Shown: in pieces, positions 26,242 to 49,599 of the stretch
How the letters are laid out: each line of letters begins with the position of its first letter
Numbering within the stretch: the stretch's first letter is position 1
Virus record (IMG/VR): IMGVR_UViG_3300046512_000015
Span: 1 to 51,630 of that record
DNA from: a virus
Length of the DNA stretch: 51,630 bases
Strand: one strand, 5' to 3'
Notes under the pieces: model-generated
Told to the model about the DNA's origin: nothing
The model's input: only the letters and a program-made list of their open reading frames with translations
Databases searched by the model: none
Program-made: the position numbers and the translations under genes

Positions 26242-26443
26242 AATTTCGCTCTACTTCATCGTATCTCTTAAGAATTGCGTCAATGGTTGCAAAATAAGAT
26301 TCCTCTGTAAACCCTGTTTTATCAAAGATGACGGACAGTTGGCTATAAGCATCCATCAAAGCTTCCGCATAAGCTTTACGCTGCTTATTACGGACTGACT
26401 TCCACATGGAATCAGGCTTGTAAGGCTTTAAATTGTTCAACAT
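26228..26443 (-). CDS. Hypothetical protein (about 71 aa)
   Basis: The start is uncertain: ATG 26443 (MLNNLKPYKPDSMW) overlaps the end of the ATP-grasp gene by 32 nt, ATG 26467 would extend it further, and ATG 26407 would shorten it. The product is helical and basic at first (MWKSVRNKQRKAYAEALMDA) and ends ILKRYDEVERNYEGS. It is coupled to the next gene by overlap. It may belong to the amidoligase module upstream or the replication operon downstream. No family is recognised. Confidence 0.5.
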   Translation of the reverse strand: MLNNLKPYKPDSMWKSVRNKQRKAYAEALMDAYSQLSVIFDKTGFTEESYFATIDAILKRYDEVERNYEGS

Positions 26444-27167
26444 ATTTATCCAATGTCGTGCCTTCAAGGCCGCAAGCAGTGTTTACTTCCAGTACGTACG
26501 GAACACCTTTAGCAGTTTCGATAATGTCAACAGCACCAAAATCAAGACCAAGAGCGGCAACCGCTGCAATGGCTTGTTTCTGAGCGTCTTCCGATACGTT
26601 CACGTCTTTGTGTGCATAGATAAATCCATTCTGATGATTACGCACTTTCCAATTCACTTGTTCATCAGGAACATCTTTGTTACGTGCTTTACGCTGAACA
26701 AAGAACACTTTCCCTTGGAATACGTGAATACGATATTCCTGAGTTTTCTTTACATATTTGACATACAGAGGGGCAGCAGTCAAACCGCCCGGTCCCTCTT
26801 CGCTTGGGACAATGTTGATGCCTTCACCGCTGTGACCAGAGAGCTTATGGCGCTCTACCACAGCAAAGCCTTGTTTAAGCCATTCTGCGGCCTCCTGGAG
26901 GTCTGTAGTGTAGTCAGGAATACTCACCTTACCTGCCATGAATTGGAAGGCGTGTAGCTTGTTTACGGCCTTTACAATGGAATCTGGGTTGTTGATCCAT
27001 TTATTTGCTGCAATCACACGCCCATCAATACGAGATGCCCCCCAGTTGATTACAACATGATTGGGAATGTTTAAAGGCTTGCCCTCATGTTTAATCAGCT
27101 TACACGCCAATGCCGCTGCCAATGCTTTAGCAGACTTGCTGCCATTCTTATATGCGTAGATTTTCAT
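26412..27167 (-). CDS. ATP-grasp carboxylate-amine ligase 2 (RimK-like)
   Basis: The 251-residue protein has an ATP-grasp outline: a nucleotide-binding centre (FAVVERHKLSGHSGEGI, then PLYVKYVKKTQEYRIHVFQG) and the metal-binding end DFGAVDIIETAKGVPYVLEV with VNTACGLEG (the E-x-N triad). ATP-grasp enzymes join a carboxylate to an amine through an acyl-phosphate. The first 20 residues (MKIYAYKNGSKSAKALAAAL) match those of the second ATP-grasp at 30815-31504, so the two are paralogues. It is the last gene of the amidoligase block, 8 nt after the amidoligase at 27176. The substrate is unknown. Confidence 0.87.
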   Translation of the reverse strand: MKIYAYKNGSKSAKALAAALACKLIKHEGKPLNIPNHVVINWGASRIDGRVIAANKWINNPDSIVKAVNKLHAFQFMAGKVSIPDYTTDLQEAAEWLKQGFAVVERHKLSGHSGEGINIVPSEEGPGGLTAAPLYVKYVKKTQEYRIHVFQGKVFFVQRKARNKDVPDEQVNWKVRNHQNGFIYAHKDVNVSEDAQKQAIAAVAALGLDFGAVDIIETAKGVPYVLEVNTACGLEGTTLDKYVEQFKALQA

Positions 27168-27175
27168 AATATTCC

Positions 27176-28066
27176 TTAGAAGTCAACAATTGCACGATTG
27201 GCACGAGGACGTACAGCAGCAGGGGCTTTAGGGGCAATCCCTTTTACAGGAGCATCCTCTACCTTCTCTTTGTAAGCGTAAGGTAAATCAAGAGTGAGAG
27301 AGAAGCTGCGTTGAATCTCTTTCACCATTCGAGGATATTTGAAGGTTTGATATAAACCGCCCAACACTTGACGCATAAAACCATCAGCATCTAGTGCCTG
27401 ATATTCTTGAAGAATTTCTTTAGGACTTTTCTTCGTGATAGCATAAGCCTTCAGAGCATATAGGGCTTCAGTCCAATCCTTGATAACTTCCTTATCGATA
27501 TTTCCACGCATAGCACGGAATTCAATACTGCCGTATTTACGCAGAGAAGCAATATTTAAAGCCGAATATCGTACAGCATTAGGATCTTGAGCCATCAGAT
27601 ACTGAAGACCCCCATTAAATCCGGTTCGCAATACTTCTACAGTGTCTTCTGCATCAACAACACGAAGACAGAAACGATTGCCCTTACGCTCACGGCCACA
27701 GAAATTAACCAGTGGCTCCTCTAGTAAGAGGTATGCGTAAATCATGTTGAGCGTCTGTGCTTCCGTGAGATCTTGTACATTTACGTGTACATGAACACTA
27801 GTGCGGAAGCTGAAATCAAACGTAGCACCTTCCAACTCTTGAATCAAGCTGTCCAATGCGGGTTCAACTTCTTCACGGGTGATTGGTTTATTAATCACAA
27901 ATTCAGCAGATTTATCTGGATAGTGTCCACGCAGAGAACCGTCGTCCACAGTCTTCCAATACTTATTGTGGACTTCTCGCATGTTCTTGCCTTCTGCCTC
28001 AATTTCAATACCAAAGAGGCCCGGCACAGGCTTCTCAAGCCCGAGCAGTTGATGTACTTTTTTCAT
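27176..28066 (-). CDS. Amidoligase (COOH-NH2 ligase, glutamine synthetase-like fold)
   Basis: The 296-residue protein fits the 'putative amidoligase' family: GLFGIEIEAEGK (metal-binding Glu in E-x-E), WKTVDDGSLRG, SAEFVINKPI, a His cluster SVHVHVNVQD and the late GSIEFRAMRGN block. These acidic and His residues form the metal and ATP site of glutamine-synthetase-like ligases. It is predicted to make amide or peptide bonds using ammonia or an amine. A Pro/Ala-rich tail (GIAPKAPAAVRPRANRAIV) could bind a partner. Its first 32 nt overlap the previous gene. Confidence 0.87.
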   Translation of the reverse strand: MKKVHQLLGLEKPVPGLFGIEIEAEGKNMREVHNKYWKTVDDGSLRGHYPDKSAEFVINKPITREEVEPALDSLIQELEGATFDFSFRTSVHVHVNVQDLTEAQTLNMIYAYLLLEEPLVNFCGRERKGNRFCLRVVDAEDTVEVLRTGFNGGLQYLMAQDPNAVRYSALNIASLRKYGSIEFRAMRGNIDKEVIKDWTEALYALKAYAITKKSPKEILQEYQALDADGFMRQVLGGLYQTFKYPRMVKEIQRSFSLTLDLPYAYKEKVEDAPVKGIAPKAPAAVRPRANRAIVDF

Positions 28067-28664
28067 AATTGTTATCCAGAAGAGTAATCAGGTGTTCATT
28101 ACCTTTAGTGAAACGGATGTCGTATACAGATTGGGGTTTTTCTTTCAGAGAGCCAACACGTCGTGTTTTGTAGTATACAAAGCCTTTGTTATCAACAGCA
28201 AATTGACGATCAAAAGCTACAATTACGTATACACCAGACATACAGCCATCGTAGGCTTCAACGATGGTTGGGTATCGTGCAAACACCGTATCTACAATCT
28301 CAGGAGCTTTGAGTTCATAAACTCGATAAACCAAAGCATTACCTAAGATACCACCATACCCTTCCGGGGCAGTAACAGACATGTTCTCGTTGTTCAAACC
28401 AACACGATAACGACGAATGGTTTTTCGAGAGAGGTATACGACATATTGTGCACAATTAACAAAGCCAAGATGTCGAGCAGGAGGCTTGAGTTCTTCGTAT
28501 TCATCCACCTTGATTACAACTTTACGTTGGCTGGTCAGATCAAATGCATGAAAGGTGAAGGTATTTTCTACATTCGTAATGAACACAGGCTTGTTCTTAT
28601 ACAGCACAAGACAGTTGTTGTACATCGTTTTCAGGTCTTCTACAGCAATCTTAATCTTAGGCAT
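28035..28664 (-). CDS. Unknown protein within the amidoligase module (209 aa)
   Basis: This 209-residue, beta-rich protein (for example CLVLYKNKPVFITNVENTFT) has no recognised motif. It overlaps the start of one amidoligase by 32 nt and the end of the other by 8 nt, so it is translationally locked between them and is likely part of the same pathway, perhaps as carrier, substrate adaptor or regulator. It has few Cys and no signal peptide. Confidence 0.7.
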   Translation of the reverse strand: MPKIKIAVEDLKTMYNNCLVLYKNKPVFITNVENTFTFHAFDLTSQRKVVIKVDEYEELKPPARHLGFVNCAQYVVYLSRKTIRRYRVGLNNENMSVTAPEGYGGILGNALVYRVYELKAPEIVDTVFARYPTIVEAYDGCMSGVYVIVAFDRQFAVDNKGFVYYKTRRVGSLKEKPQSVYDIRFTKGNEHLITLLDNNYEKSTSTARA

Positions 28665-29454
28665 TTGGAATCTCCAAACCTTCTGCCTTAATGATTTTAT
28701 TGGCTTCTTTCAAATCACTGGTGTTAATGATAGCTTGGATGTCGCCATACTTGTCATCTAACGATTTACCAGCAATCAGTTGTTGCATACCTGCTTGAAC
28801 AGCACGGAACACCCATGCCATACGTTCTTTACTGGACAGCCATGCGTTAGACAGCGTACGATATTCTACGCCATATGGCTTGTATCGGCATGCACCAGCC
28901 TTACCATACATTTCACGACGCCGGATTTCCTTGTCATACGTAAGGCTAGGCAAGCCCAGATAGAAGTCCATCTGACGAGCCACAGCGTTGCAGCGGTCAA
29001 TATGCTCCTCGCTATCTACAACAGCACCATCAGTGAAGCCGATATGGACGTGACCAGAGGCAGTACGCATAGGTACATTACCATTAGGGCGTGGGTTAAT
29101 TGCATTAGCCCAAGCATTAAAGTCTGGATCACAGCCCAATTCCAATGCCTCTTTTGGCTGTGCTTTCAGATATTCCAGACTAAAATCAGCCACAGGGACA
29201 GCTACAACTTCATACGCAGGAACCATCTGCTTCAACTGGTCATACACCGATTGAATGTTAATGCAGAATTGATCTTCCGTTGCCGCAGGATCAATGTTAA
29301 ATTCCAGTGCCATACCGTCCACTTGTACAGCACCATTCTTAACGGGCTGTGGATTCTTTTTATCACCACGAATGAGGTTGTGGGCGGAAACAAACACACC
29401 ATGTTGCTTCACAAAACATTCAGGGTCAGCACCTACCAAAATCAATTGAGACAT
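28657..29454 (-). CDS. PhiEco32-like COOH-NH2 ligase (amidoligase type 2)
   Basis: This 265-residue protein matches the phage COOH-NH2 ligase family named after phiEco32. It opens LVGADPECFVKQHG (metal-binding Glu) and contains GMALEFNIDPAATEDQF, the His block ASGHVHIGFTDG and VEYRTLSNAWLSS near the C-terminus. It is a glutamine-synthetase-like ligase distinct from the amidoligase at 27176. It begins 14 nt after the class II amidotransferase gene. The reaction is probably amide formation on a carboxylate; the substrate is unknown. Confidence 0.88.
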   Translation of the reverse strand: MSQLILVGADPECFVKQHGVFVSAHNLIRGDKKNPQPVKNGAVQVDGMALEFNIDPAATEDQFCINIQSVYDQLKQMVPAYEVVAVPVADFSLEYLKAQPKEALELGCDPDFNAWANAINPRPNGNVPMRTASGHVHIGFTDGAVVDSEEHIDRCNAVARQMDFYLGLPSLTYDKEIRRREMYGKAGACRYKPYGVEYRTLSNAWLSSKERMAWVFRAVQAGMQQLIAGKSLDDKYGDIQAIINTSDLKEANKIIKAEGLEIPNA

Positions 29455-29468
29455 TTATTTCTCCAAAA

Positions 29469-30812
29469 TTAAAATTTAACAGCTTCTAATACATCAGGAA
29501 GTTTGGCACAATCAGGACAGAAAGCCTCACTGGCCGTAGTGAACTTGGCTACACCAAATTCGAGGGGAGAAGAACACCACGAACATGCTGGATAGGCACG
29601 TTGCCATTCAACAATGTTCATTTGCTTACCACTTGCACCGGGACGAGTTTCCAGAGGTTTCTCATCCTCTTCGAGGGTTGCTAATACACGGACACTGTTA
29701 GCCTTAACCTTGTAATAGCCCTTACCCGGAGTAGTTCCTGGAACCCATACACTGATGTCAGCACTCACATCACTGCCTGTCATATCCCAAATCGTGTCCT
29801 TCATAGATTCAGGATAGAGACGAATCTCAAAGTAGGGACGCTTAGGATCAAACAGATACATAAACTCCACACCATCCTTGTCTGGATGACCTTCCATCAA
29901 CTCAAACAGGACATTCTTAGCTCTTAAGTAGTGCCTGTCGAAGCTGCTTGCGGAGTTCGAGCCGGGCAAGGAGCTGCTGTCTTGCTTTTTTCCTGCCTCA
30001 ACGGGGTCACCACCTTCTTTCTTAGCTGGTAGTTGAACTACGTTATTCACCACCACTGGGGAACGATTCTGTTGAAATCGATTCTTTTCAAACAGACCGG
30101 GAGCATCACGCACCACTGGCTTGCCTAAAGTACCTCCGTTTCCAACAGGAATTTTGAAATGGGTGTCCACTTGCAGCAGCTTGATGTCACTATGGTTGAT
30201 TCCGTGACGATTGAGGGCAACATTCAACATCCATGCTTCGGATGCCCAGAAGAACACCTTACCATCTTCTTGATCTTTAGCATCACGGGAGACACACCAG
30301 AACAGGGGGCGTTCCTTATTACGCAGAAGGTTGAGGGTTTCCTCTTCTTTATCCCACCAAGTGAGGGCCCATGCGCCGTCAATAATGCGCAAGGCATCCG
30401 CCAAACCAAACTTAGAGATGTGGTGGTATAGGTTTTCACTGTCCACCTTGAAATTCTGATGTTTATCCAACACCCATTTATTCTTCAGCGTGCCATTATG
30501 AGCACCGACTAGTAAATCATTTTCAAAAGGATGTGCAGTTTGACGGGATACACCGCCAACAGTAGCATAGCGATTGTGACCAATCATTACGCGGCTGGTG
30601 GATTTGAAGGCTGCATCATAGCTTTTATGATCAAACAGTTGGAAAGGATCACCAACCTGTTTGGCAATACGAACATCGGCACCAATAAATTTACCGATAG
30701 TTGCGACACCTGTACTGTCTTCACCACGCAACGAGTCCAACACCAGCATCGTACGCAATACTTTTTCATGCTGGACATTCAAGTCACCAGCCATACCCAC
30801 GAGTCCGCACAC
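29469..30812 (-). CDS. Class II glutamine amidotransferase-like protein with C-terminal zinc ribbon
   Basis: The 447-residue protein opens with MCGLVGMAGD, giving the N-terminal nucleophile Cys2 of Ntn-type glutaminases. Further glutamine-site blocks are LRGEDSTGVAT, GHNRYATVGG, VGAHNGTLKN and DSENLYHHISKFG, as in GlmS, PurF and AsnB. The middle (about residues 240-300) is a low-complexity linker. The C-terminal part ends in a zinc ribbon (CSWCSSPLE ... CPDCAKL). It would release ammonia from glutamine for its neighbours. I see no sugar isomerase or synthetase domain, so it should feed a partner ligase. Confidence 0.9.
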   Translation of the reverse strand: MCGLVGMAGDLNVQHEKVLRTMLVLDSLRGEDSTGVATIGKFIGADVRIAKQVGDPFQLFDHKSYDAAFKSTSRVMIGHNRYATVGGVSRQTAHPFENDLLVGAHNGTLKNKWVLDKHQNFKVDSENLYHHISKFGLADALRIIDGAWALTWWDKEEETLNLLRNKERPLFWCVSRDAKDQEDGKVFFWASEAWMLNVALNRHGINHSDIKLLQVDTHFKIPVGNGGTLGKPVVRDAPGLFEKNRFQQNRSPVVVNNVVQLPAKKEGGDPVEAGKKQDSSSLPGSNSASSFDRHYLRAKNVLFELMEGHPDKDGVEFMYLFDPKRPYFEIRLYPESMKDTIWDMTGSDVSADISVWVPGTTPGKGYYKVKANSVRVLATLEEDEKPLETRPGASGKQMNIVEWQRAYPACSWCSSPLEFGVAKFTTASEAFCPDCAKLPDVLEAVKF

Positions 30813-30814
30813 TA

Positions 30815-31504
30815 TTAAATCCCCTTTAAACGTTTAACAATAGCCTTCTTAACCTCTTCGGTTAGGATAGGGCCTGAGTTTGCTTCCAGTATTACAAATT
30901 CACCATCTTCATTTTCAAGGACATCAAAGCCTACGTAATCAACGCCAATAGCTTGTGCAGCTTGTTGGCATTCGTAATCAATAGCTTCAAATCCTGCTTT
31001 CTGCATCAGGATTAGGTCCCAACGTTCAGCTGTAGCCACTTTATGATAGCGGCCCACCACCTTACCCATGAACAAGACAATGCGGTATTCCCACTTGTGT
31101 TCAAAATACTCAGTGTATAGTTCTGCGTGAGGAAGAACATCTCCCTTATACGCATATTCCATACCTTTATTCATCGCTGCACAAGCATCCTTGCGACATA
31201 CGATTGTTTCCCAATACTTAGGAACTTCATTACGTGAGGTTTTAAAATCTGGATGAGACAAACCCTTACGCTTGAGAATGTTAAACGTCTGTATTTTATC
31301 AACACAACGTTCAACAGCAATAGCACTATTGATCATGTGCTTTGCTTGAAACTTATTACCACAGCCATAATTGAACACTAGGTCATACCGAGAGAAGCTA
31401 GTACGTCCTGTGTCGTATGGATTGATTGCGTCAGCACCTAAGGCAGCAGCAAGGGCTTTAGCCGATGTGCTACAGGCACCGGGGTAAATTACACAGATTT
31501 TCAT
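30815..31504 (-). CDS. ATP-grasp carboxylate-amine ligase 1
   Basis: The 229-residue protein starts MKICVIYPGACSTSAKALAA and contains a lysine-bearing ATP site (KGDVLPHAELYTEYFEHKW, EYRIVLFMGKVVGRYHK) and the metal-binding end GFDVLENEDGEFVILEANSG. The frame is open to 31546, but that part lies inside the tRNA-Arg gene; ATG 31504 with AGGAG eight bases upstream is the true start. It is a paralogue of 26412-27167. It starts the run ATP-grasp, amidotransferase, amidoligase, unknown, amidoligase, ATP-grasp. Confidence 0.87.
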   Translation of the reverse strand: MKICVIYPGACSTSAKALAAALGADAINPYDTGRTSFSRYDLVFNYGCGNKFQAKHMINSAIAVERCVDKIQTFNILKRKGLSHPDFKTSRNEVPKYWETIVCRKDACAAMNKGMEYAYKGDVLPHAELYTEYFEHKWEYRIVLFMGKVVGRYHKVATAERWDLILMQKAGFEAIDYECQQAAQAIGVDYVGFDVLENEDGEFVILEANSGPILTEEVKKAIVKRLKGI

Positions 31505-31518
31505 GCTGCTCCTAGAAA

Positions 31519-31594
31519 TGGTCTCACTAGCAGGAATCGAACCCACATTGGGGAGGTAGAAGCTCCCAGTATTATCCGTTATACGATAGTGAGA
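31519..31594 (-). tRNA. tRNA-Arg (TCT)
   Basis: A complete cloverleaf can be drawn. The acceptor pairs TCTCACT with AGTGAGA, the anticodon stem is GGGAG/CTCCC with loop CTTCTAC (anticodon TCT, reading AGA), and the T arm contains GGGTTCGATTCC. The CCA end is encoded. It sits inside the amidoligase operon, 14 nt before the ATP-grasp ATG, so end processing would also cut the polycistronic mRNA. Confidence 0.92.
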
Positions 31595-31599
31595 TTTGT

Positions 31600-31773
31600 T
31601 TATCGGTCGCTAAATGGGAAAGCTGCGAATAAACAAGAAAGAAACAATGAACAAACTAGTGCACCAACTAGATTAGCACAACGTTCACCATTCCAACCAG
31701 AACACCATAAGATAAACAAACCTATTGGTATCGGAATGCTAAATGCAATTGTTCTTTTACATAGCACGTTCAT
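31600..31773 (-). CDS. Small membrane protein (57 aa)
   Basis: A 57-residue frame runs from ATG 31773, which overlaps the previous stop (ATGA), to TAA at 31600, just before tRNA-Arg. It has two hydrophobic segments (IAFSIPIPIGLFILWCSGW and GALVCSLFLSCLFAAF) joined by a short polar turn, so it is a likely two-span membrane hairpin. It is the last of three consecutive small membrane proteins. Holin, antiholin or membrane anchor for the amidoligase module are all possible. Confidence 0.65.
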   Translation of the reverse strand: MNVLCKRTIAFSIPIPIGLFILWCSGWNGERCANLVGALVCSLFLSCLFAAFPFSDR

Positions 31774-32174
31774 TTTGTGGATACCTCTAGCACTTTCTCA
31801 ATAGCTTGTTTAGCAAGCCACAGATCAGGATGGAACAGCTTGACCCACAGCCACACGTTGAACAAATTTATAGCTTGAATTGCTAAACCGCCTATTGTAA
31901 TTGAACCAATAAGGCCGCTTATGGTGCTGGGGAGTCCTTCTGGGTAGTTGTAATCATGCTTTCCATGTATGTCCCATTTCCAGATCTTTTTGAAACCTAA
32001 TACAATACCTAAAATAGCTAAAGCACAAATGAGTGAAAGAACAAGCTGTTGAACAGCATCAATCTGGATTGTCAACAAACCAATCTCATATGCTTTCTTA
32101 GCCACAGGGACAGCAGCATTAACAAACTTTTCAGTGTATTCTGCTGCTTTCTGCATTAACAGGTTGGTGTCCAT
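31770..32174 (-). CDS. Membrane protein (134 aa)
   Basis: The 134-residue protein has an amphipathic N-terminal helix, a strong transmembrane segment (LVLSLICALAILGIVLGFKK) and a second hydrophobic region (ISGLIGSITIGGLAIQAINL) after a polar loop (WDIHGKHDYNYPEG). It overlaps its neighbours as TAATG and ATGA. No signal cleavage site is clear. Its place within the amidoligase block points to a product acting at or crossing the inner membrane, but holin-like activity cannot be excluded. Confidence 0.7.
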   Translation of the reverse strand: MDTNLLMQKAAEYTEKFVNAAVPVAKKAYEIGLLTIQIDAVQQLVLSLICALAILGIVLGFKKIWKWDIHGKHDYNYPEGLPSTISGLIGSITIGGLAIQAINLFNVWLWVKLFHPDLWLAKQAIEKVLEVSTK

Positions 32175-32320
32175 TAAAACTCCAATACATTACCAAGAGC
32201 TACACCGAAAAGCAAACAAAGCAACAATGAAACCCAGTTTGGAATGTTCAATTGTTTGCAAATATCTGCAATTGCCCAACCAGAAAGGAAACAAGCAATA
32301 ATTTTAATTAGGATGTCCAT
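32174..32320 (-). CDS. Small membrane protein (48 aa)
   Basis: This 48-residue frame begins at ATG 32320 inside the previous stop (TAATG) and ends at 32174 inside the next start (TAATG). It has two hydrophobic segments (ILIKIIACFLSGWAIADI and WVSLLLCLLFGVALGNVL), probably a membrane hairpin. It was missed by length cut-offs. Coupling on both sides makes translation likely; the function is unknown. Confidence 0.65.
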   Translation of the reverse strand: MDILIKIIACFLSGWAIADICKQLNIPNWVSLLLCLLFGVALGNVLEF

Positions 32321-32685
32321 TATCGTGCCTTAAATTTAGCAATGTTGTCAGGATGATGCTTACGCTTCTTAGCTGGTTTGGTGTAGATGTACATACGGCA
32401 TTTATATTTACCGTGAATACTCCCACCTTCCACCACTTTAAACGTCTTAGGGTGGATGATAGCGTATTCCTTCCACACTTTCCAGCATTTGTCTTTCTCT
32501 GTAACAGAGAACACAATTACATCATTGTCCGTATCTTCTACGGCGTATTTGATGTACGCTTTGATAAGACCTTCTGTATTGATTTCATCAAAGACAGTGA
32601 AACGATGGGCAAAACATGGAAGGTGGGATTCACTGTCCCGAATACTCCATTTTCCATGTTCATATAAAATATCCTGTAATGACAT
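32320..32685 (-). CDS. Hypothetical protein (121 aa)
   Basis: This 121-residue soluble protein has a beta-rich middle (DVIVFSVTEKDKCWKVWKEY) and a very basic tail (KPAKKRKHHPDNIAKFKAR). It lies one base after the class I amidotransferase stop and overlaps the 48-aa membrane protein. It may be an adaptor between soluble enzymes and membrane partners, or nucleic-acid-binding through its tail. No family is recognised. Confidence 0.6.
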   Translation of the reverse strand: MSLQDILYEHGKWSIRDSESHLPCFAHRFTVFDEINTEGLIKAYIKYAVEDTDNDVIVFSVTEKDKCWKVWKEYAIIHPKTFKVVEGGSIHGKYKCRMYIYTKPAKKRKHHPDNIAKFKAR

Positions 32686-32686
32686 A

Positions 32687-33307
32687 TCACACTCCCAGAT
32701 ATTTAACCAGCAAGCCAGCGAAATAATTCTTCATGCCCTCATACTCAGGACGATCAAACTCTGGATGGGGCTGGAAGCACAGAGCCTTAGTTTTCTCATA
32801 GAAAACCACTTCAATGTCTTCCTTAGACACGTCTTTCTTAGCCACAGCACCATCAAACCACTCACGTGCACCACCAAGGGCTGCTGTAGCCACTACAAGG
32901 GCCTCAGGAGACGGCATAATCATCTGGTGGTGTGTACTACTCACATAGATGGTTTCACCGCTCAAAACGTCTGTAATCGAATGCGACTGGCAATGACGTT
33001 CAACGTTCTGGTACATACGACCACCTGAGAATACATTTAGGAATTGACCACCACGACAGATGCCCACCATTGGGACACCTGCCTCTTTGAATTGCTTGGC
33101 CAATTCCATTTCGTATTTGTCACGACGAGGATCATTACCGGTAGTCCAATGCTGTTCATCGCCATATAAGGAAGGCGTTACATCAGCACCACCAGTGAAT
33201 ACAGCCAGCTGTGCTTCTTCTACATTATTCGTGATAGCGAAGCCCAGCGCAGTGAACAGCTTACGATAGTCTGGACCACCGCCAATAATAATTACATTCT
33301 TGCTCAT
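32687..33307 (-). CDS. Class I glutamine amidotransferase-like hydrolase (peptidase C26 type)
   Basis: The 206-residue protein carries the catalytic triad of class I amidotransferases: nucleophile Cys84 in VGICRGGQ and His181/Glu183 in FQPHPEFD. The block FTGGADVTPSLYGDE is typical of the gamma-glutamyl hydrolase (C26) branch. It could release ammonia from glutamine or cleave a gamma-glutamyl bond made by the ligases of this module. It follows the 581-aa gene by 10 nt. A second amidotransferase of the unrelated class II type lies in the same operon. Confidence 0.9.
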   Translation of the reverse strand: MSKNVIIIGGGPDYRKLFTALGFAITNNVEEAQLAVFTGGADVTPSLYGDEQHWTTGNDPRRDKYEMELAKQFKEAGVPMVGICRGGQFLNVFSGGRMYQNVERHCQSHSITDVLSGETIYVSSTHHQMIMPSPEALVVATAALGGAREWFDGAVAKKDVSKEDIEVVFYEKTKALCFQPHPEFDRPEYEGMKNYFAGLLVKYLGV

Positions 33308-33317
33308 ATGTTTCTCC

Positions 33318-35063
33318 TTAGTTGATCAGTTTGTTCAGTTGTTCAGCGTAATCGTATACGGTTTCATTGGTGAGGACAGCTTTAGCATTAAATCCTTCAC
33401 CCACCTTTGTACTCTTCATGTTATTTGCAACATGCTCGAGCATTGTTTCTTGACCAGCATGGTGCTGTGCAACAGCATTGTGAATCTGGTAGCCGCTCAT
33501 GTGTTCATTAGCTGGCCCTTGTTTGGTGTCCTCATGGAAGCCTTGTTGGAAGAATTTAATGAAGGATTTGTAAGAAGCATCCCCTACCATACAAGTGTGA
33601 CCACCCTCCGCGAAGGACAGCTTAGTGAAGCTCTTTGCTTGCTCCACCCACTGTACAATATGGGCCATCAGGAATGCAGTGTTCTCCCCATAGCCTTGAT
33701 CTACAAAATGCACAAACGTAGCCGGCTTGTCTTTGTATTCAAAGCCAACACGAATGGCAATAGCCGCAGCGAGAATTTGACTAATGTTTTTAGTGAGATC
33801 GGCTTGCACGCCTTTCTCCAACTGAACATCGTATTCTTCCTTGATGAAGGCTTCGCTGAATGGGCTACGATACAGGACATATTCATTCCAGCGTTTCAAA
33901 TCTTCCTGTTTAACCCCACCATTGTTGTAATAATTTTTAATATACTTAGGACCATTACCAAGGGAGAATACGAAATAATCCAATGGGGTGTTGACGTAGC
34001 GAATTGGGGCGTAGCAAGCTGGAGACATTTCAATCTTGGGCTTTTGTTCCTTGCATTTCCAAGCGAAGCTACACACAGCATTAGAACCTGGACCAACCTT
34101 CTTACGTGCCTCTGCCAAATATTCCTCAACACTAGGCTCTGCTGGCTTAGGAGGAATTGCTTGGGCTTCTAAGGGAGCCTCCTCACAAGGCGTACCATCC
34201 TCAAATTTTAAGGAGCTAATAGGCCATACCCAAGAAGTGCCAACAAGCTTGGCATACGGGAAGCCAGTACGGTGAGTTTTAATATTTTCAATTACATGAA
34301 CATTGCCCTTTTGGACAATTTCATCCATATGGGCATTCCAGCCGAGCTTCGTTTCAACCTTCTTATAGGGAATTACTTTATCCCCCACTTTCAGAACACG
34401 CTTCTCTTGTTTCAAGCGTAGATTGTTACGGGGGATGTACATCCAATCATCGCCATCACATCCTTCCCACACCAGCCGGGCGAGATCAGAATATCGGTTA
34501 TAAGCAAGATCTTGGGGATTCAGATCTTTAATCTTTAACGTTTTAATACGTTCTGGATGATTTTTCAGAACACCAATCCAGCCCGTGTAAGAGCCTTGTT
34601 TAGAGGTCATGTCAATAACCTCCACCAGATCACCATCTTGCAGCTTACGTGCTTCTACAGGTGCTTTAGGCAGCTCCAGTGGAACAATCTCAAAGCGAGA
34701 CTTCTTAAAGGCCTTGCCCGGAATATCCTCAACGCAATAGGTGTTTGCGCCAATAGATTTGATTGTATAAACCGCATTCTTACGCAGCCCAGAGCCACGC
34801 AGAGGATCAACACATTTAATCTTTACGCCAACAGCTTCTGCTGGAATACGCATGATAGCTTGCGCTTTCTCTACAGCTTTAAAGCGATTGGCGAAGAACA
34901 ATTGTGCTAGATCTTTATCGTTTAAAACACGAACACCATTACCGCCTTCTACTGAAAGCACAATGTATTCTTTACCAACCGTAAGCTTGCCTTCAGCATC
35001 TTTACCAAATTGGTTAGGACCAGCGTTAACGCAGACAATCTTCTGACCTTTTTCAAAAGCCAT
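33318..35063 (-). CDS. Multidomain SH3-like barrel protein of the amidoligase module (581 aa)
   Basis: The first 300 residues read as about four small beta-barrels of KOW/SH3-like type, each with a 'G-x-x-Y/V-x-V' start: KGQKIVCVNAGPN with LTVGKEYIVLSV; VGVKIKCVDPLR; LQDGDLVEVIDM; LKVGDKVIPYKK. A Pro/Glu-rich linker (APLEAQAIPPKPAEPSVEEY) follows, then a 250-residue domain of unknown fold with many conserved-looking aromatics, His and Cys (HFVDQGYGENTAFLMAHIV). It is the first gene of the amidoligase operon. The barrels could recognise a peptide, RNA or the substrate to be modified. The function is unknown. Confidence 0.7.
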   Translation of the reverse strand: MAFEKGQKIVCVNAGPNQFGKDAEGKLTVGKEYIVLSVEGGNGVRVLNDKDLAQLFFANRFKAVEKAQAIMRIPAEAVGVKIKCVDPLRGSGLRKNAVYTIKSIGANTYCVEDIPGKAFKKSRFEIVPLELPKAPVEARKLQDGDLVEVIDMTSKQGSYTGWIGVLKNHPERIKTLKIKDLNPQDLAYNRYSDLARLVWEGCDGDDWMYIPRNNLRLKQEKRVLKVGDKVIPYKKVETKLGWNAHMDEIVQKGNVHVIENIKTHRTGFPYAKLVGTSWVWPISSLKFEDGTPCEEAPLEAQAIPPKPAEPSVEEYLAEARKKVGPGSNAVCSFAWKCKEQKPKIEMSPACYAPIRYVNTPLDYFVFSLGNGPKYIKNYYNNGGVKQEDLKRWNEYVLYRSPFSEAFIKEEYDVQLEKGVQADLTKNISQILAAAIAIRVGFEYKDKPATFVHFVDQGYGENTAFLMAHIVQWVEQAKSFTKLSFAEGGHTCMVGDASYKSFIKFFQQGFHEDTKQGPANEHMSGYQIHNAVAQHHAGQETMLEHVANNMKSTKVGEGFNAKAVLTNETVYDYAEQLNKLIN

Positions 35064-40965: not shown

Positions 40966-43032
40966 ATGTCTAAAATTGAATTAGACCCTATTGCTTCTGG
41001 ATATAATCTAGATGTGATTAACAATAACTTCCAGAAGATTGAAGACGAATTAAACAATAAAGTTTTATATCGAACCAATCCTTCTGGTCAGCCTAATCAG
41101 ATGTCTAATAATTTAGATATGAATGGTAAGGCAATTATTAATGCCTCTAATATTGGAGGAGGTGGAGGAGCTGTAGCTGCTGAAGATGTTTCTTTTGTTC
41201 CAGTTGGTACAATTGAGAGTACAAATGTACAGGATGCTGTAGCAGAAGTGTTAGGAGATATTCCTACAGCTGCTATTAACTTCCCTCTTCCTGTTGGAAT
41301 CGCTGCACAGATTGGTGTTTCTACACGTTACGCTAGGGAAGATCACGTACACGTAGGGGATGGTTCAGGAGGTGGTGGAGGTGGAGATGCTATTAGCACT
41401 GGCCTGGCTTATGCCTATCAACGTGCAGTGAGTATGCCTGTAGGGATGCCTGGGGATGTAGTATTTACGTTTGCTAGTGCTACAATTACCACACCAGCGT
41501 CTAATGCTCTGTTAAATGGCTGGACTAAGCTTATTCCTGCTGGTTCCAATCCTCTGTGGGTTACAGTGGCTAGTGCAAGCGCTACAACCTCCACAGATAC
41601 AATTTTTAACAGTGAATGGGCTACACCAGTCATTCTGTCTCAAGATGGTACAGACGGTGTAAATGGTTTGAATGTAGCTACAGTTTATTTGTACCAGCGT
41701 TCTGCTACAGCTACACCAGTGCCTGCTGTTCCAAGCGCTAATGTAACATACCAATTCAATCCTCCTGTAGTTACGGGATTGACAAACGGATGGCAGACAT
41801 CTGTCCCTAACATTTCTGGTGGGGCGTTCTTATTCGTTACACAAGCTACAGCAGTTAGTACAGGCACTACTGACATCATCACCCCATCGGAATGGGCTGC
41901 TGTCCAGATTATGGCTCAGAATGGTGCTAATGGCTCTACTGGCCCTTCTGGAGCTAATGGAACACGTGGTACAGTTAATATTGCGCAAGGAGGACGTACT
42001 AGCTGGAGTGATGCTGTTGCAGTGTCTGCTATTTCTGCTGCTGGGTATGGGTCCCCTATTGAACGAGATATTGTTACTCAATATGGTACAGGCTTCTCAC
42101 AAACCCGATTCTACACAGGCGGTGTTTGGACTATTCTTACAGCGTATATTAATGGTAATCTGTTAGTGTCTGGAACTATCGCTGCTTCTTCTATTGCAGC
42201 AGACACCTTCACTGGTCAAGAGTATAGAACTGCAACCTCAGGACAACGTATCCATATTAACTTAAGTGGTAATAATAAGTTCCAAGCATACAATTCTAGT
42301 GGAACAGTTATTGCTGAAATTGGTAGTGGTTCTACTGGCGGCGGCAGTGCTTACATTTTAGGAACCAGTTTAAATCCTTCTCTTTATGTTACCAATAGCG
42401 GTTCAGGTGCTGGTATTTATTCTGTAACCGGTTCTAGTAGCGCAGATGCTATTTCTGGAAGCTCTGGTAGTACAACATATGCGGCAGGATCTTTTAGTAA
42501 TTCGGCTACAAATGGGGCAGCTATTTATATTAATGGCCGTGTCTCCACACAAGCTAAGAGTTCCGGTTTAGGTATTGCAGCAATGAATGAAGTGTTGCCT
42601 GTATCGGATAATACATACGCATGCGGGGCAGCAAGTAATCGTTGGTCAGTTGTTTATGCGGCTACTGGAACCATTAACACATCTGATGCACGTATCAAGA
42701 CAGATGTACAAAGCACCGACCTAGGCCTTTCCTTCGTTAAAGCTTTACGTCCTGTTAAGTTTAAATTTATTGAAGGCCACAAAACAATTGTGGAAAGTGA
42801 AGAGCGTGGCGAATATTCCACAGTATCTGTTCCAGGAACTCGTTACCACTATGGATTTATTGCTCAAGAAGTTAAAGAGGCATTGGGGGAAATTGATTCT
42901 GGTATTTGGTGTCTTACGGATAAAGACGATCCAGACAGTATCCAACAACTACGAGAGAATGAAATTGTTCCTTCGCTAGTTAAAGCTATTCAAGAACTAG
43001 AAGCACGTATTGCAGCGTTGGAGGCAAAATGA
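40966..43032 (+). CDS. Tail fibre protein with C-terminal S74 intramolecular chaperone
   Basis: The start is ATG 40966 (MSKIELDPIASGYNLDVINN) with AAGGA upstream; the longer open frame from 40918 has no ribosome site. The 688-residue protein has an N-terminal attachment region with NNLDMNGKAI, repeated beta-rich fibre segments (two related blocks near TPASNALLNGWTKLIPAG and NPPVVTGLTNGWQTSVPN) and a collagen-like GSTGPSGANGTRG. The C-terminal 116 residues begin with SDARIKTDV, the self-cleaving S74 chaperone that folds trimers and is then released, and end in a coiled coil (IQELEARIAALEAK). It is the second receptor-binding candidate besides the tailspike, and the first late gene. Confidence 0.88.
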   Translation: MSKIELDPIASGYNLDVINNNFQKIEDELNNKVLYRTNPSGQPNQMSNNLDMNGKAIINASNIGGGGGAVAAEDVSFVPVGTIESTNVQDAVAEVLGDIPTAAINFPLPVGIAAQIGVSTRYAREDHVHVGDGSGGGGGGDAISTGLAYAYQRAVSMPVGMPGDVVFTFASATITTPASNALLNGWTKLIPAGSNPLWVTVASASATTSTDTIFNSEWATPVILSQDGTDGVNGLNVATVYLYQRSATATPVPAVPSANVTYQFNPPVVTGLTNGWQTSVPNISGGAFLFVTQATAVSTGTTDIITPSEWAAVQIMAQNGANGSTGPSGANGTRGTVNIAQGGRTSWSDAVAVSAISAAGYGSPIERDIVTQYGTGFSQTRFYTGGVWTILTAYINGNLLVSGTIAASSIAADTFTGQEYRTATSGQRIHINLSGNNKFQAYNSSGTVIAEIGSGSTGGGSAYILGTSLNPSLYVTNSGSGAGIYSVTGSSSADAISGSSGSTTYAAGSFSNSATNGAAIYINGRVSTQAKSSGLGIAAMNEVLPVSDNTYACGAASNRWSVVYAATGTINTSDARIKTDVQSTDLGLSFVKALRPVKFKFIEGHKTIVESEERGEYSTVSVPGTRYHYGFIAQEVKEALGEIDSGIWCLTDKDDPDSIQQLRENEIVPSLVKAIQELEARIAALEAK

Positions 43033-43229
43033 AGCAACATCTAGATTCTGTAACTAGTCCCAATATCTCCATTCCAATTGTAGGAGTTACGGGATTTATG
43101 AATTTTCTAGAAGGCAATCTTCCTTTGATCATTAACATTTGCACAGTTGTCTATCTAGGACTCCTTATTAGCCATAAAGCCTATCAAATGTATAAAGAGA
43201 TTAAAGGTAAAGATGAATCAAGCAAATAA
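43029..43229 (+). CDS. Holin-like small membrane protein (66 aa)
   Basis: The 66-residue protein has one clear transmembrane segment (LPLIINICTVVYLGLLISHK) and a charged C-terminal tail (MYKEIKGKDESSK). It starts inside the fibre stop (ATGA) and overlaps the endolysin by 17 nt. A one-span holin or pinholin is expected at this place before a SAR endolysin, since a pinholin suffices to depolarise the membrane. Confidence 0.8.
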   Translation: MKQHLDSVTSPNISIPIVGVTGFMNFLEGNLPLIINICTVVYLGLLISHKAYQMYKEIKGKDESSK

Positions 43230-43707
43230 ATGGCTTGTGGGATTAGTGGGGGCAGGGTTGATTGCCTCCACAACTCTCTGGGAAGGTAATGAGCTTAAGC
43301 CTTATAAGGATGTAACAGGAACTTGGACAGCGTGCCAAGGAATCACTGAGAATGTACAGCCTGATAAGATTTACACTCAACCAGAGTGTGATGCCCTCTT
43401 AGCTAAACACTTAGCTCAACATGGAAAAGAAGCCCTCAATTGTATTAATGTTCCAATCTCTAGAAATGAGTATGAGGCATATACGATGTTTACGTATAAT
43501 GTAGGAGCAGCTAATTTCTGTAGTTCTGGAGCATTAAAGGAACTAAATAAGGGTAATCACGAGGAAGCGTGTAAACGCCTCTATCGTCAACCAGACGGAA
43601 GTCCTGCTTGGAGCTATTCCAAAGGAAAATACTTCCAAGGACTACAAAATAGGCGTCAATATGAATCCAATCTCTGTTTGGGTAAAATCCAACCTCCTAA
43701 AGGTTAA
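43213..43707 (+). CDS. SAR endolysin, GH24 lysozyme
   Basis: The 164-residue muramidase shows the GH24 triad Glu24 (WEGNE), Asp33 and Thr39, with the spacing of T4 lysozyme, and YTMFTYNVGAANFC in the second lobe. The N-terminal stretch WLVGLVGAGLIASTTL is weakly hydrophobic and rich in Gly and Ala, the mark of a signal-anchor-release domain that tethers the inactive enzyme to the membrane until depolarisation. Five Cys residues could reshape the active site on release. It overlaps the Rz-like gene by 47 nt. Confidence 0.93.
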   Translation: MNQANKWLVGLVGAGLIASTTLWEGNELKPYKDVTGTWTACQGITENVQPDKIYTQPECDALLAKHLAQHGKEALNCINVPISRNEYEAYTMFTYNVGAANFCSSGALKELNKGNHEEACKRLYRQPDGSPAWSYSKGKYFQGLQNRRQYESNLCLGKIQPPKG

Positions 43708-44170
43708 GCTAATAGCCCTAGGAACGATTATAACAGCTCTTGTAGGCTTTCATTACTATGATCGGTACACATATAGCCAAGAGCATGTAAAAGAGGCTGT
43801 AGGCGCTTTAAACGCTTCCTATACAATTGCTATAGCAAAACAAGTGACTGCTTCTCAGAAGAAAGAAGAGGAGATTAGGGCACAATCTAAAATTGAACAG
43901 GATAAAAGAGATGAAAAACTTAAAGCTCTTGATGTTAAGCTTAACAATGTGCTTAGTGAGTTGCACAACCGTCCCTCCCGTTCAGGCCCCCAAACAGATT
44001 CCCAAACTTCCGGAACTAATAAAGCCTGTACCGGCTCCGAGCTTTACAGAGAAGATGGAGAATTTCTTGCGAGGGAAGCTGCCAGAGCAGACTCAATAGT
44101 AATTCAACGGGATTACTATTATCAAGAATATGAAAACGCAAGAAAGAAATTAGATGAAGCTTCCAAGTAA
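43661..44170 (+). CDS. i-spanin (Rz-like)
   Basis: The 169-residue protein has an N-terminal membrane anchor (LKVKLIALGTIITALVGFHY) and a long periplasmic coiled coil (SQKKEEEIRAQSKIEQDKRD onward). That is the structure of inner-membrane spanins, which join the outer-membrane lipoprotein to fuse the two membranes at lysis. It starts inside the endolysin gene and carries the Rz1-like gene in another frame. Confidence 0.88.
   Translation: MNPISVWVKSNLLKVKLIALGTIITALVGFHYYDRYTYSQEHVKEAVGALNASYTIAIAKQVTASQKKEEEIRAQSKIEQDKRDEKLKALDVKLNNVLSELHNRPSRSGPQTDSQTSGTNKACTGSELYREDGEFLAREAARADSIVIQRDYYYQEYENARKKLDEASK
43911..44099 (+). CDS. o-spanin lipoprotein (Rz1-like), embedded in the Rz frame
   Basis: The 62-residue product is nested wholly within the i-spanin gene. 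The start is ATG 43911 with AAAAGAG before it; ATG 43893 in the same frame is less likely. It has a lipoprotein signal (MKNLKLLMLSLTMCLVSC, lipobox LVSC, lipidated Cys18) followed by a Pro-rich stretch (TTVPPVQAPKQIPKLPE) as in Rz1. It would sit in the outer membrane. This confirms a Gram-negative host. Confidence 0.9.
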   Translation: MKNLKLLMLSLTMCLVSCTTVPPVQAPKQIPKLPELIKPVPAPSFTEKMENFLRGKLPEQTQ

Positions 44171-46258: not shown

Positions 46259-48025
46259 ATGGCTAAGAAGCCCTTAGAAACTCGTGCCATCTTTGGCGGT
46301 GATGATGTTTCCAAATATATTGGAATGACTTGGTTCAATTTCAATAGTCAACGACAAACTAAATTAGATCAATGGCGTGAACTACGTAATTATATTTTTG
46401 CTACTGATACTACAACTACAACTAATAGTTCTCTTCCTTGGAAGAATAGCACTACACTCCCTAAACTTTGTCAGATTCGTGACAATCTTCATTCCAATTA
46501 TATTAGTGCATTGTTCCCTAATGATGATTGGCTGAAATGGGAAGGCTATTCGATGGAAGACTCTATTAAAGAGAAAGTGAAGACAATTGAAGCCTACATG
46601 TCTAACAAAACTCGTGAGGGTCATTTTAGAACAGAATGCAGTAAACTCCTCTATGATTATATTGATTATGGTAATTGCTTTGCTACAGTAGATTATGAAT
46701 CTTCGTACATTAAGGATGCTGCTGGTAATCGAGTAATTGATTTCATCGGCCCCCGTCTACGCAGAATCAGTCCTTTAGACATCATCTTCAATCCAATCTC
46801 TAACACATTTAAAGATTCCTTTAAAATCATTCGCTCCCTTAAAACTATTGGTGAATTGCGAATTATGGCAGAGGATGAACCAGACAATGCCTATCTCAAA
46901 ACGGCTTTACTAAATAGGGATAAAATGTGTGCTCACATGAATTCCTATGGACTAGAGGAATTCGAGAAGCAAGAAGGTATTCTTATGGATGGATTCGGTA
47001 ATTACTCCGAATACCTTCAAAGCGGATATGTGGAACTGTTGGAATTCTGGGGTGACATGCACGATCAGAAAACAGGTACAGTTAAGCGTGGACGAGTAAT
47101 CACTGTAATTGATCGTATGTACATGATTCGGGATGAAGCCATTCCTAGCTGGTCTGGAAGCGCTCCAATCTTCCATGCAGGGTGGCGTACCCGTCCAGAC
47201 AATCTGTGGGCTATGGGCCCTCTAGACAATCTGGTAGGCATGCAATATCGTATTGACCATCTGGAGAATTTGAAAGCAGACGCTATGGACTTAGCTGTTC
47301 TTCCTCCTTTGAAGATTAAAGGAGAGGTAGAGGAATTTAGATACGGTCCGGGTGTTGAGATTCACATTGATGAGAATGGTGACGTAGAAGAATTGGGACA
47401 CAACGTACAGTGGGTGATTCAAAGTGACAACGCTATCACACTTCTGGAACAGCGCATGGAGATGTATGCTGGTGCTCCTCGTGAAGCTATGGGTATTCGT
47501 ACTCCGGGTGAGAAAACTGCATTTGAAGTTCAACAACTAGACAATGCAGCAGGTCGTATCTTCCAAGAGAAAATCAATACGTTTGAGATTGAGATGTTGG
47601 AGAAGGCCCTTAACGCCATGCTAGAGACTGCTAAACGCAATCTAGACGCTTCTGATGTTATCCGTGTTATGGACAATGACATTGGTGTTCAACAGTTCGT
47701 ACGCATCACTAAAGAAGATATTACCGCTTCTGGTAAACTTCGTCCTATTGGTGCTAGACATTTTGCTGCACAAGCAACTCTAATGCAGAATCTGAATGGT
47801 ATCTGGCAGACGCAGATTGGTCAAATGATCTCTCCGCATACAAGTACAATCCAATTGGCTAAATTAGTAGAAGACGTATTAGGGCTGTCCCGCTATAGCT
47901 TGTTTGCGCCTAACGTAGCAGTTGCAGAACAACAACAAACAATGCGGCTGTCAAATCAAGCTCAAGAGGATTTACAGGTTGAGCAATCCGTTAATCCTAA
48001 CAACCCACAACAAGGACAAGCATAA
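46259..48025 (+). CDS. Portal (head-tail connector) protein
   Basis: This 588-residue protein follows TerL, as portals do. T7-like portal features are DNLHSNYISALFPNDDWLKW, the phosphate-contact-type middle (DNLVGMQYRIDHLENLKADA) and GAPREAMGIRTPGEKTAFEV. The C-terminal 40 residues are Gln/Asn-rich (VAVAEQQQTMRLSNQ) and probably reach into the capsid. The next gene overlaps as TAATG. Confidence 0.92.
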   Translation: MAKKPLETRAIFGGDDVSKYIGMTWFNFNSQRQTKLDQWRELRNYIFATDTTTTTNSSLPWKNSTTLPKLCQIRDNLHSNYISALFPNDDWLKWEGYSMEDSIKEKVKTIEAYMSNKTREGHFRTECSKLLYDYIDYGNCFATVDYESSYIKDAAGNRVIDFIGPRLRRISPLDIIFNPISNTFKDSFKIIRSLKTIGELRIMAEDEPDNAYLKTALLNRDKMCAHMNSYGLEEFEKQEGILMDGFGNYSEYLQSGYVELLEFWGDMHDQKTGTVKRGRVITVIDRMYMIRDEAIPSWSGSAPIFHAGWRTRPDNLWAMGPLDNLVGMQYRIDHLENLKADAMDLAVLPPLKIKGEVEEFRYGPGVEIHIDENGDVEELGHNVQWVIQSDNAITLLEQRMEMYAGAPREAMGIRTPGEKTAFEVQQLDNAAGRIFQEKINTFEIEMLEKALNAMLETAKRNLDASDVIRVMDNDIGVQQFVRITKEDITASGKLRPIGARHFAAQATLMQNLNGIWQTQIGQMISPHTSTIQLAKLVEDVLGLSRYSLFAPNVAVAEQQQTMRLSNQAQEDLQVEQSVNPNNPQQGQA

Positions 48026-48433: not shown

Positions 48434-48508
48434 GCCGTAGTAGTTCAGTGGAAGAACAGCTCCCTTGTAAGGAGCGTGTCGAAAGTTCGATTCTTTCCTG
48501 CGGCTCCA
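48434..48508 (+). tRNA. tRNA-Thr (TGT)
   Basis: Acceptor GCCGTAG with CTGCGGC, anticodon arm GCTCC-CTTGTAA-GGAGC (anticodon TGT, reading ACA), T arm with AGTTCGATTCT and encoded CCA. It is first of four tRNAs in the late operon. Confidence 0.92.
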
Positions 48509-48515
48509 GAACATT

Positions 48516-48590
48516 TGCGTTGTAGCTCAACGGTAGAGCAGGGCACTGTTAATGCCTCGGCTGGAGGTTCAAGTCCTCCCTTCGCAGCCA
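48516..48590 (+). tRNA. tRNA-Asn (GTT)
   Basis: Anticodon arm GGGCA-CTGTTAA-TGCCT (anticodon GTT, reading AAC/AAU), T arm GGAGG-TTCAAGT-CCTCC and encoded CCA. The acceptor stem (TGCGTTG/CTTCGCA) has two T-T mismatches, so it may need checking for function. Confidence 0.85.
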
Positions 48591-48594
48591 ACAT

Positions 48595-48667
48595 GCGTGT
48601 GTGTCTAAGGCAGACTGCCGCCCTTCCAAGGCGTCCACAAAGGGTTCGATTCCCTTCACCCGCTCCA
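48595..48667 (+). tRNA. tRNA-Gly (TCC)
   Basis: Anticodon arm with loop CTTCCAA (anticodon TCC, reading GGA), T arm GGGTTCGATTCCC and encoded CCA. The acceptor (GCGTGTG/CACCCGC) has one mismatch. It begins 4 nt after the tRNA-Asn CCA. Confidence 0.82.
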
Positions 48668-48673
48668 ATCAAT

Positions 48674-48759
48674 GCCACAATGGTGAAATTAGGTATACAC
48701 GTCAGTTTTAGAAACTGATGCCTTTGTGCGTCTCGGTTCGATTCCGAGTTGTGGCACCA
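48674..48759 (+). tRNA. tRNA-Leu (TAG)
   Basis: Class II tRNA with acceptor GCCACAA/TTGTGGC, anticodon arm TCAGT-TTTAGAA-ACTGA (anticodon TAG, reading CUA), long variable arm, T arm CTCGGTTCGATTCCGAG and encoded CCA. Together with tRNA-Leu (TAA) it covers A-ending Leu codons. Confidence 0.94.
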
Positions 48760-48777: not shown

Positions 48778-49599
48778 ATGACCGACCAGTCAATCTTTAA
48801 TGGTAACGAGAATCAACCGGCTACCCAGCCAAATCAAAGTGCTGCGCAACCAGCACAACCTGTTCAGACACCAGACCCTATTGCTGACCTGCTAGCGTCT
48901 GTTAAGAATGAACGTGGAGAAGCGAAGTACAGAGACGTAACTGAAGCTTTAAATGGTTTGAAACATGCTCAAGAATACATCCCATCGCTTAAGAATGAAC
49001 TTAGCGCAAAGGATCAGGCTCTAGCAGCCGCACTAGCAGAAGTTGAACGTTTGAAGGCAGTTGAAGAATCTGTACGAGCATTCACTTCCCAACCAGCTCC
49101 AGCTGTACAACCAACAGCTCCGGTGTTTGATGAGAAGAAGATTGCAGATTTAGTGACACAAACTCTTACGCAACGGGAAGTACAGTCTGCACAAAAGGCT
49201 AATCTTTCCACGGTAGTTACATCCCTCCAGCAATCTTTCGGTGCTGATGCAGAAAAGGTGTTCTACGATAAGGCTACAGAGCTTGGAATGAGCATGGAAG
49301 AAATGAATGTTCTTGCAGCTAAATCTCCTAAAGCAGTTTTGACTATGCTTGGTGTAAAAGTGGGAGCGCAATCTAGTTCTGTGGCCCACATTCCCGGCAG
49401 TGTCAATTCCTCTGCGTATCAGCCTCGACAAGACTCCTTCGTGGGACGTAACAACAAATCAGCAATGATTGGTGCTACTACAGAAGATTTGCAAATGGAA
49501 GCACACAACTCTCGTAAGATGGTTGAAGAGCTTCATGCTGCTGGCCTAACTGTCCATGATTTGAGTGATCCTAAAGTGTATAAGAAATACTTCAAATAA
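48778..49599 (+). CDS. Scaffolding protein
   Basis: The 273-residue protein is rich in Gln, Ala, Pro and Glu, with a disordered start (NQPATQPNQSAAQPAQPVQT), a coiled coil (LKNELSAKDQALAAALAEVE) and a helical C-terminus (DLSDPKVYKKYFK). This is typical of phage scaffolds. It lies directly before the major capsid gene. It would direct procapsid assembly and leave before packaging. Confidence 0.88.
   Translation: MTDQSIFNGNENQPATQPNQSAAQPAQPVQTPDPIADLLASVKNERGEAKYRDVTEALNGLKHAQEYIPSLKNELSAKDQALAAALAEVERLKAVEESVRAFTSQPAPAVQPTAPVFDEKKIADLVTQTLTQREVQSAQKANLSTVVTSLQQSFGADAEKVFYDKATELGMSMEEMNVLAAKSPKAVLTMLGVKVGAQSSSVAHIPGSVNSSAYQPRQDSFVGRNNKSAMIGATTEDLQMEAHNSRKMVEELHAAGLTVHDLSDPKVYKKYFK

Follow-up and report, generated by a model that had tools for sequence, protein, structure and literature searches.

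A leftward run of genes at positions 26412-35063 of the virus record IMGVR_UViG_3300046512_000015 (51,630 bases; the whole record is called the window here) raises the question of what chemistry a phage performs with several amide-bond ligases and two proteins of the glutamine amidotransferase (GAT) type encoded side by side. This run is a new, Zobellviridae-like representative of the published amidoligase ('peptidoglycan modification') cassette of the phiEco32, LUZ24, RIO-1 and PA11 phages, and comparison of its sequences indicates that the class I GAT-fold protein (GAT-I) probably acts to remove gamma-glutamyl groups and not as a source of ammonia. On the minus strand, from 35063 to 26412, the order is protein X, GAT-I, a basic protein, three small hydrophobic proteins, tRNA-Arg, ATP-grasp 1, a class II GAT (GAT-II), COOH-NH2 ligase, UNK, Amidoligase_2 and ATP-grasp 2. 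Every open reading frame (ORF) that the first-pass annotation had placed in a single leftward run was recovered on this strand and in this order. The ORFs are densely packed and several overlap; coordinates and start contexts gave overlaps of 8 bases (UNK/COOH-NH2 ligase) and 32 bases (amidoligase/UNK), and gaps of 2 bases (ATP-grasp 1/GAT-II) and 10 bases (X/GAT-I).

Genes for COOH-NH2 ligase, Amidoligase_2, ATP-grasp and class II GAT are clustered, and both their order and their location on the primase/helicase side are as in described Zobellviridae, the closest named relatives of the virus; on these grounds the region is assigned to the published cassette. The cassette is followed by a primase/helicase, a sigma factor and a DNA polymerase-like ORF, as it is in CVT22, PA11, Klyazma, GP100 and CW02. 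PHROG matches to the cassette proteins reach E = 1e-89; a nucleotide search gave no match to the cassette region among known phages. Relatives were collected as 98 non-redundant Zobellviridae-like loci, of which 63 were untruncated and had enough flanking DNA. Seven functions (X, GAT-I or gamma-glutamyl cyclotransferase (GGCT), GAT-II, COOH-NH2 ligase, UNK, Amidoligase_2 and ATP-grasp) form a core that nearly all of these 63 share: GAT-II, both GCS-fold ligase types and the ATP-grasp in 63/63 each, UNK in 62/63, and X and GAT-I in 60/63 each. The core order is fixed in Zobellviridae, ahead of primase/helicase, and rearranged equivalents occur in LUZ24, phiEco32, GAP52, 7-11 and LAh_6. The cassette is an intact multi-enzyme set whose genes co-occur in very distant phages, as expected from the first-pass annotation. 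COOH-NH2 ligase, UNK, Amidoligase_2, GAT-II and ATP-grasp next to primase/helicase, with conserved residues, are shared with the phiEco32/LUZ24/RIO-1/PA11 cassettes; the window differs from them in an extra ATP-grasp 1 between GAT-I and GAT-II, in a long X with N-terminal SH3-like repeats, in intervening unconserved membrane genes, and in having GAT-I in place of GGCT, for which a search of the whole window was negative. PA11, which is listed as having the pathway, likewise has GAT-I and lacks GGCT, so that GGCT is not defining for the cassette. A bacterial source was considered and rejected, as only 6 matches were found in a set of 84,980 genomes, and each of them lay in a metagenome-assembled contig. 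The cassette or parts of it have been described in UFV-P2/LUZ24, TC6/PA11, RIO-1/PSA-HP1, OM43 phages and recent Pseudomonas phages. For the phiEco32-like phage SU10, a phage concentrate was found to contain the ATP-grasp, GAT and YtfP/GGCT proteins, which were identified as products of early genes (PMC4281155).

GAT-I (32687..33307) matches the Pfam family Peptidase_C26 (1e-22) far better than GATase (3e-8), and has a C26 fold with a Cys-His-Glu triad. The residues by which it had been assigned as a class I amidotransferase (Cys84, His181 and Glu183) are indeed present and, together with H105, H126, H127 and Q179, invariant in 50/50 homologues. The nearest solved structures include PuuD (6vtv) and the 'probable glutamine amidotransferase' entries 7d4r, 7d50 and 7d53, which we take to be SpuA. 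In fold, triad and nearest structures GAT-I resembles the hydrolases of systems that pair a gamma-glutamyl ligase with a hydrolase (the PuuA/PuuD putrescine pathway and SpuA). Its nearest relatives of known activity cleave a gamma-glutamyl-N bond, and among NCBIfam profiles it scores best with gamma-glutamyl-CDP-amidate hydrolase and gamma-Glu-GABA hydrolase.

The distribution of GAT-I points in the same direction. Whole-record searches of 69 records detected C26 in 49 and GGCT in 24; after removal of three contigs cut inside the cassette, GGCT was present in 16/17 records without GAT-I and in 8/49 records with it, and 65/66 genomes had GAT-I, GGCT or both. In the sole record with neither (L051), GAT-II and amidoligase are likewise absent near the ligase. 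The exchange extends to position: the order X-GATI-GATII is found in 78 loci, and in RIO-1, Vibrio 1.293 and Slicky01 it is X-GGCT-GATII, with GGCT in the exact slot of GAT-I; in a fourth locus (L140) GGCT lies immediately ahead of X. On the ligase tree the GGCT-only state corresponds to about five or six changes. GGCT-type enzymes cut gamma-glutamyl-amine bonds in a reaction that yields no ammonia, and since such an enzyme replaces GAT-I, the latter is most simply read as a gamma-glutamyl remover; from this exchange we infer that GAT-I probably cleaves gamma-glutamyl amides. Several points weigh against the assignment. The curated hydrolase equivalog scores are not reached (33.5 vs 266 and 41.6 vs 250 bits), which sets GAT-I apart from PuuD and SpuA; the cassette as a whole also differs from these systems in its ligases, which have the GCS fold and are unlike PuuA. 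For the GAT-I/GGCT exchange, the Fisher p of 1e-8 ignores kinship, and a phylogeny-independent pair test was not significant, with too few informative pairs. Finally, eight genomes hold both genes, so the two jobs may differ somewhat.

The catalytic residues of the remaining enzymes, judged on 50-67 homologues per family, have not been lost in the alignments: active-site positions are invariant or nearly so. The COOH-NH2 ligase type 2 (PF14395; 28657..29454; COOH-NH2_lig 3e-9) has about 20 invariant residues, with D10, E12, K32, D46, E51, R130, H135, H137, R179, R190, E197 and R199 invariant in 65/65 homologues. In the amidoligase (PF12224; 27176..28066; Amidoligase_2 2e-9) the ExExE, E, HxH and ExR residues are invariant or nearly so, and E23, E55, H92, H94, E182 and R184 are kept in 59/59 homologues. 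GAT-II (29469..30812; GATase_6 4e-16) is a class II, N-terminal nucleophile (Ntn) amidotransferase with a C-terminal CxxC...CxxC; it starts M-C, in agreement with the Cys2 proposed earlier, and the glutamine-site residues R81, H94, N106, G107 and D124 are kept in at least 95% of homologues.

The K, E, R, D, E, N set of the ATP-grasp is invariant in 67/67 homologues. ATP-grasp 2 (26412..27167; phrog_2599 1e-85) passes the Pfam RimK cut-off (2e-5, 24.9 vs 21 bits) and is a RimK-like ligase; its top NCBIfam profile is the alpha-L-glutamate ligase MptN (7e-13, under its cut-off). Catalytic residues and best profile matches are as in the RimK/MptN alpha-L-glutamate ligases, from which the window ATP-grasp differs in falling far under the curated cut-offs (RimK 41 vs 143 bits, MptN 48 vs 350 bits). 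ATP-grasp 1 (30815..31504; phrog_2599 1e-21) just misses the RimK ATP-grasp cut-off (3e-4, 20.8 vs 21 bits) and retains the active-site residues. Its start was set at the ATG at 31504; a longer GTG start at 31546 was discarded because the ORF would enter the tRNA at 31519-31593. An ATP-grasp occupies this slot in only 22/98 relatives, and this residue-complete paralogue may therefore add an optional ligation step. Membership in the R2K clade (Burroughs 2015) was rejected, since the ATP-grasp scored below the Pfam gathering scores of R2K_2 (19.7 vs 26.2 bits) and R2K_3 (23.7 vs 26.3 bits).

Taken together, we consider it moderately probable that the cassette encodes a cytosolic, ATP-driven 'add, amidate, trim' pathway for glutamyl-type amide bonds on an acceptor. 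The GCS-fold ligases (COOH-NH2 ligase and Amidoligase_2) and the ATP-grasp ligase(s) would attach glutamate or further amino acids to the acceptor by amide bonds at the expense of ATP, and some of the newly made bonds would be gamma-glutamyl. The class II GAT would free ammonia from glutamine for one of the ligases, and GAT-I, or GGCT in other phages, would later remove a gamma-glutamyl group; the whole scheme would be comparable to PuuA/PuuD and related routes. It counts against this scheme that no cassette protein has a known substrate or product.

Two further components had been overlooked. The complete set of ORFs surrounding the ligase was clustered for 65 loci, followed by profile searches and a second set of 80 loci; beyond the named enzymes, the initial clustering recovered UNK in 47 loci and X in 26 loci. 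With the counts for untruncated relatives given above, X and UNK belong to the cassette as near-obligate partners. Protein X (33318..35063, 581 residues) has no Pfam or NCBIfam family and consists of a variable N-terminal half with SH3-like repeats (residues ~1-310) and a conserved C-terminal domain of 264 residues (33321..34112). The earlier description as an SH3-like multidomain protein holds for the variable half; the conserved part is the X domain. X proteins range from 266 to 591 residues, and several SH3-like repeats ahead of the X domain are seen only in the longer proteins of close relatives. In domain numbering, the conserved residues are Cys33 (79/79), Ser83 (73/80), Arg121 (81/81), Glu125 (79/81) and His172 (74/81). 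The AlphaFold2 model of the domain is confident (predicted local distance difference test (pLDDT) 89.6, predicted template-modelling score (pTM) 0.90), and a fold search gave no match in the PDB. A Cys-aromatic-Gly motif at a helix start suggested a papain-like protein, for which the fold search gave no support.

Among viral models (BFVD, E <= 1e-3) all named matches to X come from cassette phages, and several are equal in length to genes that immediately precede the COOH-NH2 ligase or head the cassette (GAP52 gp028 and gp029, RIO-1 gp7, CW02 gp70 and, more weakly, LAh_6 gp113). An iterated profile search gathered the tandem pairs of 7-11 and GAP52 and LAh_6 gp113, and nothing outside cassettes. 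With tblastn, two X proteins matched 25 and 30 phage records, and the cassette is present in those of them for which this could be verified. UNK (28035..28664; phrog_11055) likewise has no Pfam or NCBIfam family; its AlphaFold2 model (pLDDT 92.1) gave no significant PDB match in the fold search, with at most weak similarity to SH3/PWWP-like barrels. Both X and UNK are highly variable in sequence among relatives, and no long hydrophobic segment is present in X, GAT-II or UNK. The probable role of X is that of an enzyme or acceptor working through its invariant Cys; against this, X could be a structural partner instead of an enzyme.

Small proteins at comparable positions were seen in other lineages. 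Tandem proteins near the ligase in LUZ24 (gp14/gp15), phiEco32 (gp87/gp88) and crAss cr108_1 (gp29/gp30) have C-[FY]-[GA] near the N-terminus, as in X; they were not counted as X, since profile comparison shows no homology. Eight loci (L028, L029, L031, L032, L036, L039, L046 and L050) have varied small proteins with a C-C-G motif (such as YPACCGI, TFCCGVGQIGNF) upstream of the COOH-NH2 ligase, often two per genome and near the position of X in other phage lineages. The motif C-[CFYH]-[GA] is present in 27/82 upstream ORFs vs 11/161 elsewhere.

A bolder form of the pathway would place X at its centre. Here X, whose predicted fold is unmatched in solved structures and whose invariant Cys belongs to a motif resembling Cys-[FYHC]-[GA], would be the central enzyme or acceptor of a ligate-modify-deglutamylate pathway, and distant cassettes (LUZ24, phiEco32, crAss-like and marine 'CCG' proteins) would carry diverged, often paired, relatives of X. 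We regard this extension as speculative; if it is true, X would be a universal signature of the system.

What the 'add, amidate, trim' pathway acts on is the point at which the explanations diverge: three candidates differ in the acceptor, and each can be combined with the proposed chemistry. A peptidoglycan precursor and a small amine-type metabolite are about level, both tentative, and a protein is slightly less favoured. Peptidoglycan, which these hosts have in common, has gamma-D-glutamyl bonds. In modification against superinfection, the ligases and amidotransferases would change how stem peptides are linked on precursors in the cytosol, and later phages, or the lysin of the phage itself, would then encounter an altered wall. 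The known peptidoglycan amidation systems GatD/MurT and AsnB/LtsA draw on the class I and class II types of GAT; however, no Mur-ligase, MurT or GatD-type protein and no asparagine-synthase ligase domain was found among the ten cassette proteins scanned. The proposal that phiEco32/RIO-1-like cassettes modify peptidoglycan is credited to Iyer 2009 and Hardies 2013 in PMC5498523 and PMC10580990, and appears also in PMC11945000. In the literature on the cassette, where Iyer 2009 and Hardies 2013 are represented through citing papers, we found no experimental test of function and no substrate reported for the ligases. The unconserved membrane genes of the window and the co-location of the cassette with replication genes also argue against a role in the wall.

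A second possibility, of similar standing, is a diffusible or a nucleotide- or polyamine-linked small amide compound, on which gamma-glutamyl would be a temporary protecting or carrier group, on the model of the PuuA/PuuD, SpuA, MeOPN and butirosin BtrJ/BtrG pathways. The nearest characterised relatives of GAT-I and its exchange with GGCT are in favour of such a compound; on the other hand, none of the conserved cassette genes recovered by the locus clustering encodes a decarboxylase, aminotransferase, nucleotidyltransferase or carrier protein. Slightly less likely is the addition of amino acids to a host or phage protein, with X or UNK as the target or target selector. It agrees with the RimK-like ATP-grasp, with the Burroughs/Iyer prediction for phage ATP-grasp ligases and with the near-obligate, strongly sequence-variable X and UNK, but the RimK subfamily and R2K cut-offs are missed and no tail or acceptor site is recognisable. 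The statement in the first-pass annotation that such phage sets were predicted to make novel peptides or to tag proteins is borne out by the literature. Its further reading, that both GATs supply ammonia for two amidation steps, is improbable: complete glutaminase-type catalytic residues are kept in both, but GAT-I is C26/PuuD-like, closest to gamma-glutamyl hydrolases, and is swapped for a cyclotransferase whose known reaction makes no ammonia.

Envelope action had also been proposed from the three putative membrane proteins encoded between GAT-I and the tRNA (48 residues with two hydrophobic segments, 32174..32320; 134 residues, 31770..32174; 57 residues, 31600..31773). The 48- and 57-residue proteins have no relative among the 98 loci; the 134-residue protein has one there (L003/L081, same contig), located elsewhere in that phage, and gave no phage match. 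Because they are unconserved in related loci, the membrane proteins give no evidence for an envelope role; an envelope target is a published hypothesis that rests on other reasoning. They were likewise rejected as module parts or lysis genes, the latter being located at 43029-44170 (a holin-like ORF of 66 residues, an endolysin and a probable inner spanin, whose gene encloses in another frame an ORF at 43893-44099 for an outer-spanin-like lipoprotein). The basic protein of 121 residues (32320..32685) belongs to no family and is an accessory, found beside GAT-I in a few close relatives (11 locus ids, repeats of the same contigs counted). PADLOC gave only two weak matches (13-16 bits), both to this protein, and a defence system was therefore rejected.

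The tRNA-Arg (UCU) at 31519..31593 (ARAGORN and Rfam) had been listed as a member of the module. AGA accounts for 0.9% of Arg codons in the module vs 12.3% in structural genes, and because of this the tRNA fits late-gene translation; from codon usage it looks like a general late-gene codon helper that is not specific to the cassette. It adjoins the extra ATP-grasp in only 7/22 loci having one, and with the codon usage this led us to reject a role as aminoacyl donor. A cluster of four further tRNA genes (Thr, Asn, Gly and Leu) at 48434-48759 separates ORF 46259-48025 from ORF 48778-49599 and lies a short distance upstream of the region that holds the major head protein gene. The window has an exact direct terminal repeat of 127 bases (positions 1-127 and 51504-51630), and the 51,630-base contig is therefore probably a complete (circularly closing) genome. 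Genes of NAD-salvage type (nicotinate/nicotinamide phosphoribosyltransferase and phosphoribosyl pyrophosphate (PRPP) synthetase) were seen near the cassette in LAh_6, Slicky01 and 7-11.

The ligases of the cassette are present in more than 300 sequenced phage records (316 with COOH-NH2 ligase, 337 with amidoligase), among them phages that infect laboratory E. coli and P. aeruginosa PAO1; the E. coli phages Bas87 and Bas92 of the BASEL collection carry a cassette protein. X and UNK are near-universal, structurally confident and unannotated, and any reconstitution would probably need both. The exchange of GAT-I with GGCT narrows the chemistry of the cassette to gamma-glutamyl bonds and makes it biochemically testable.

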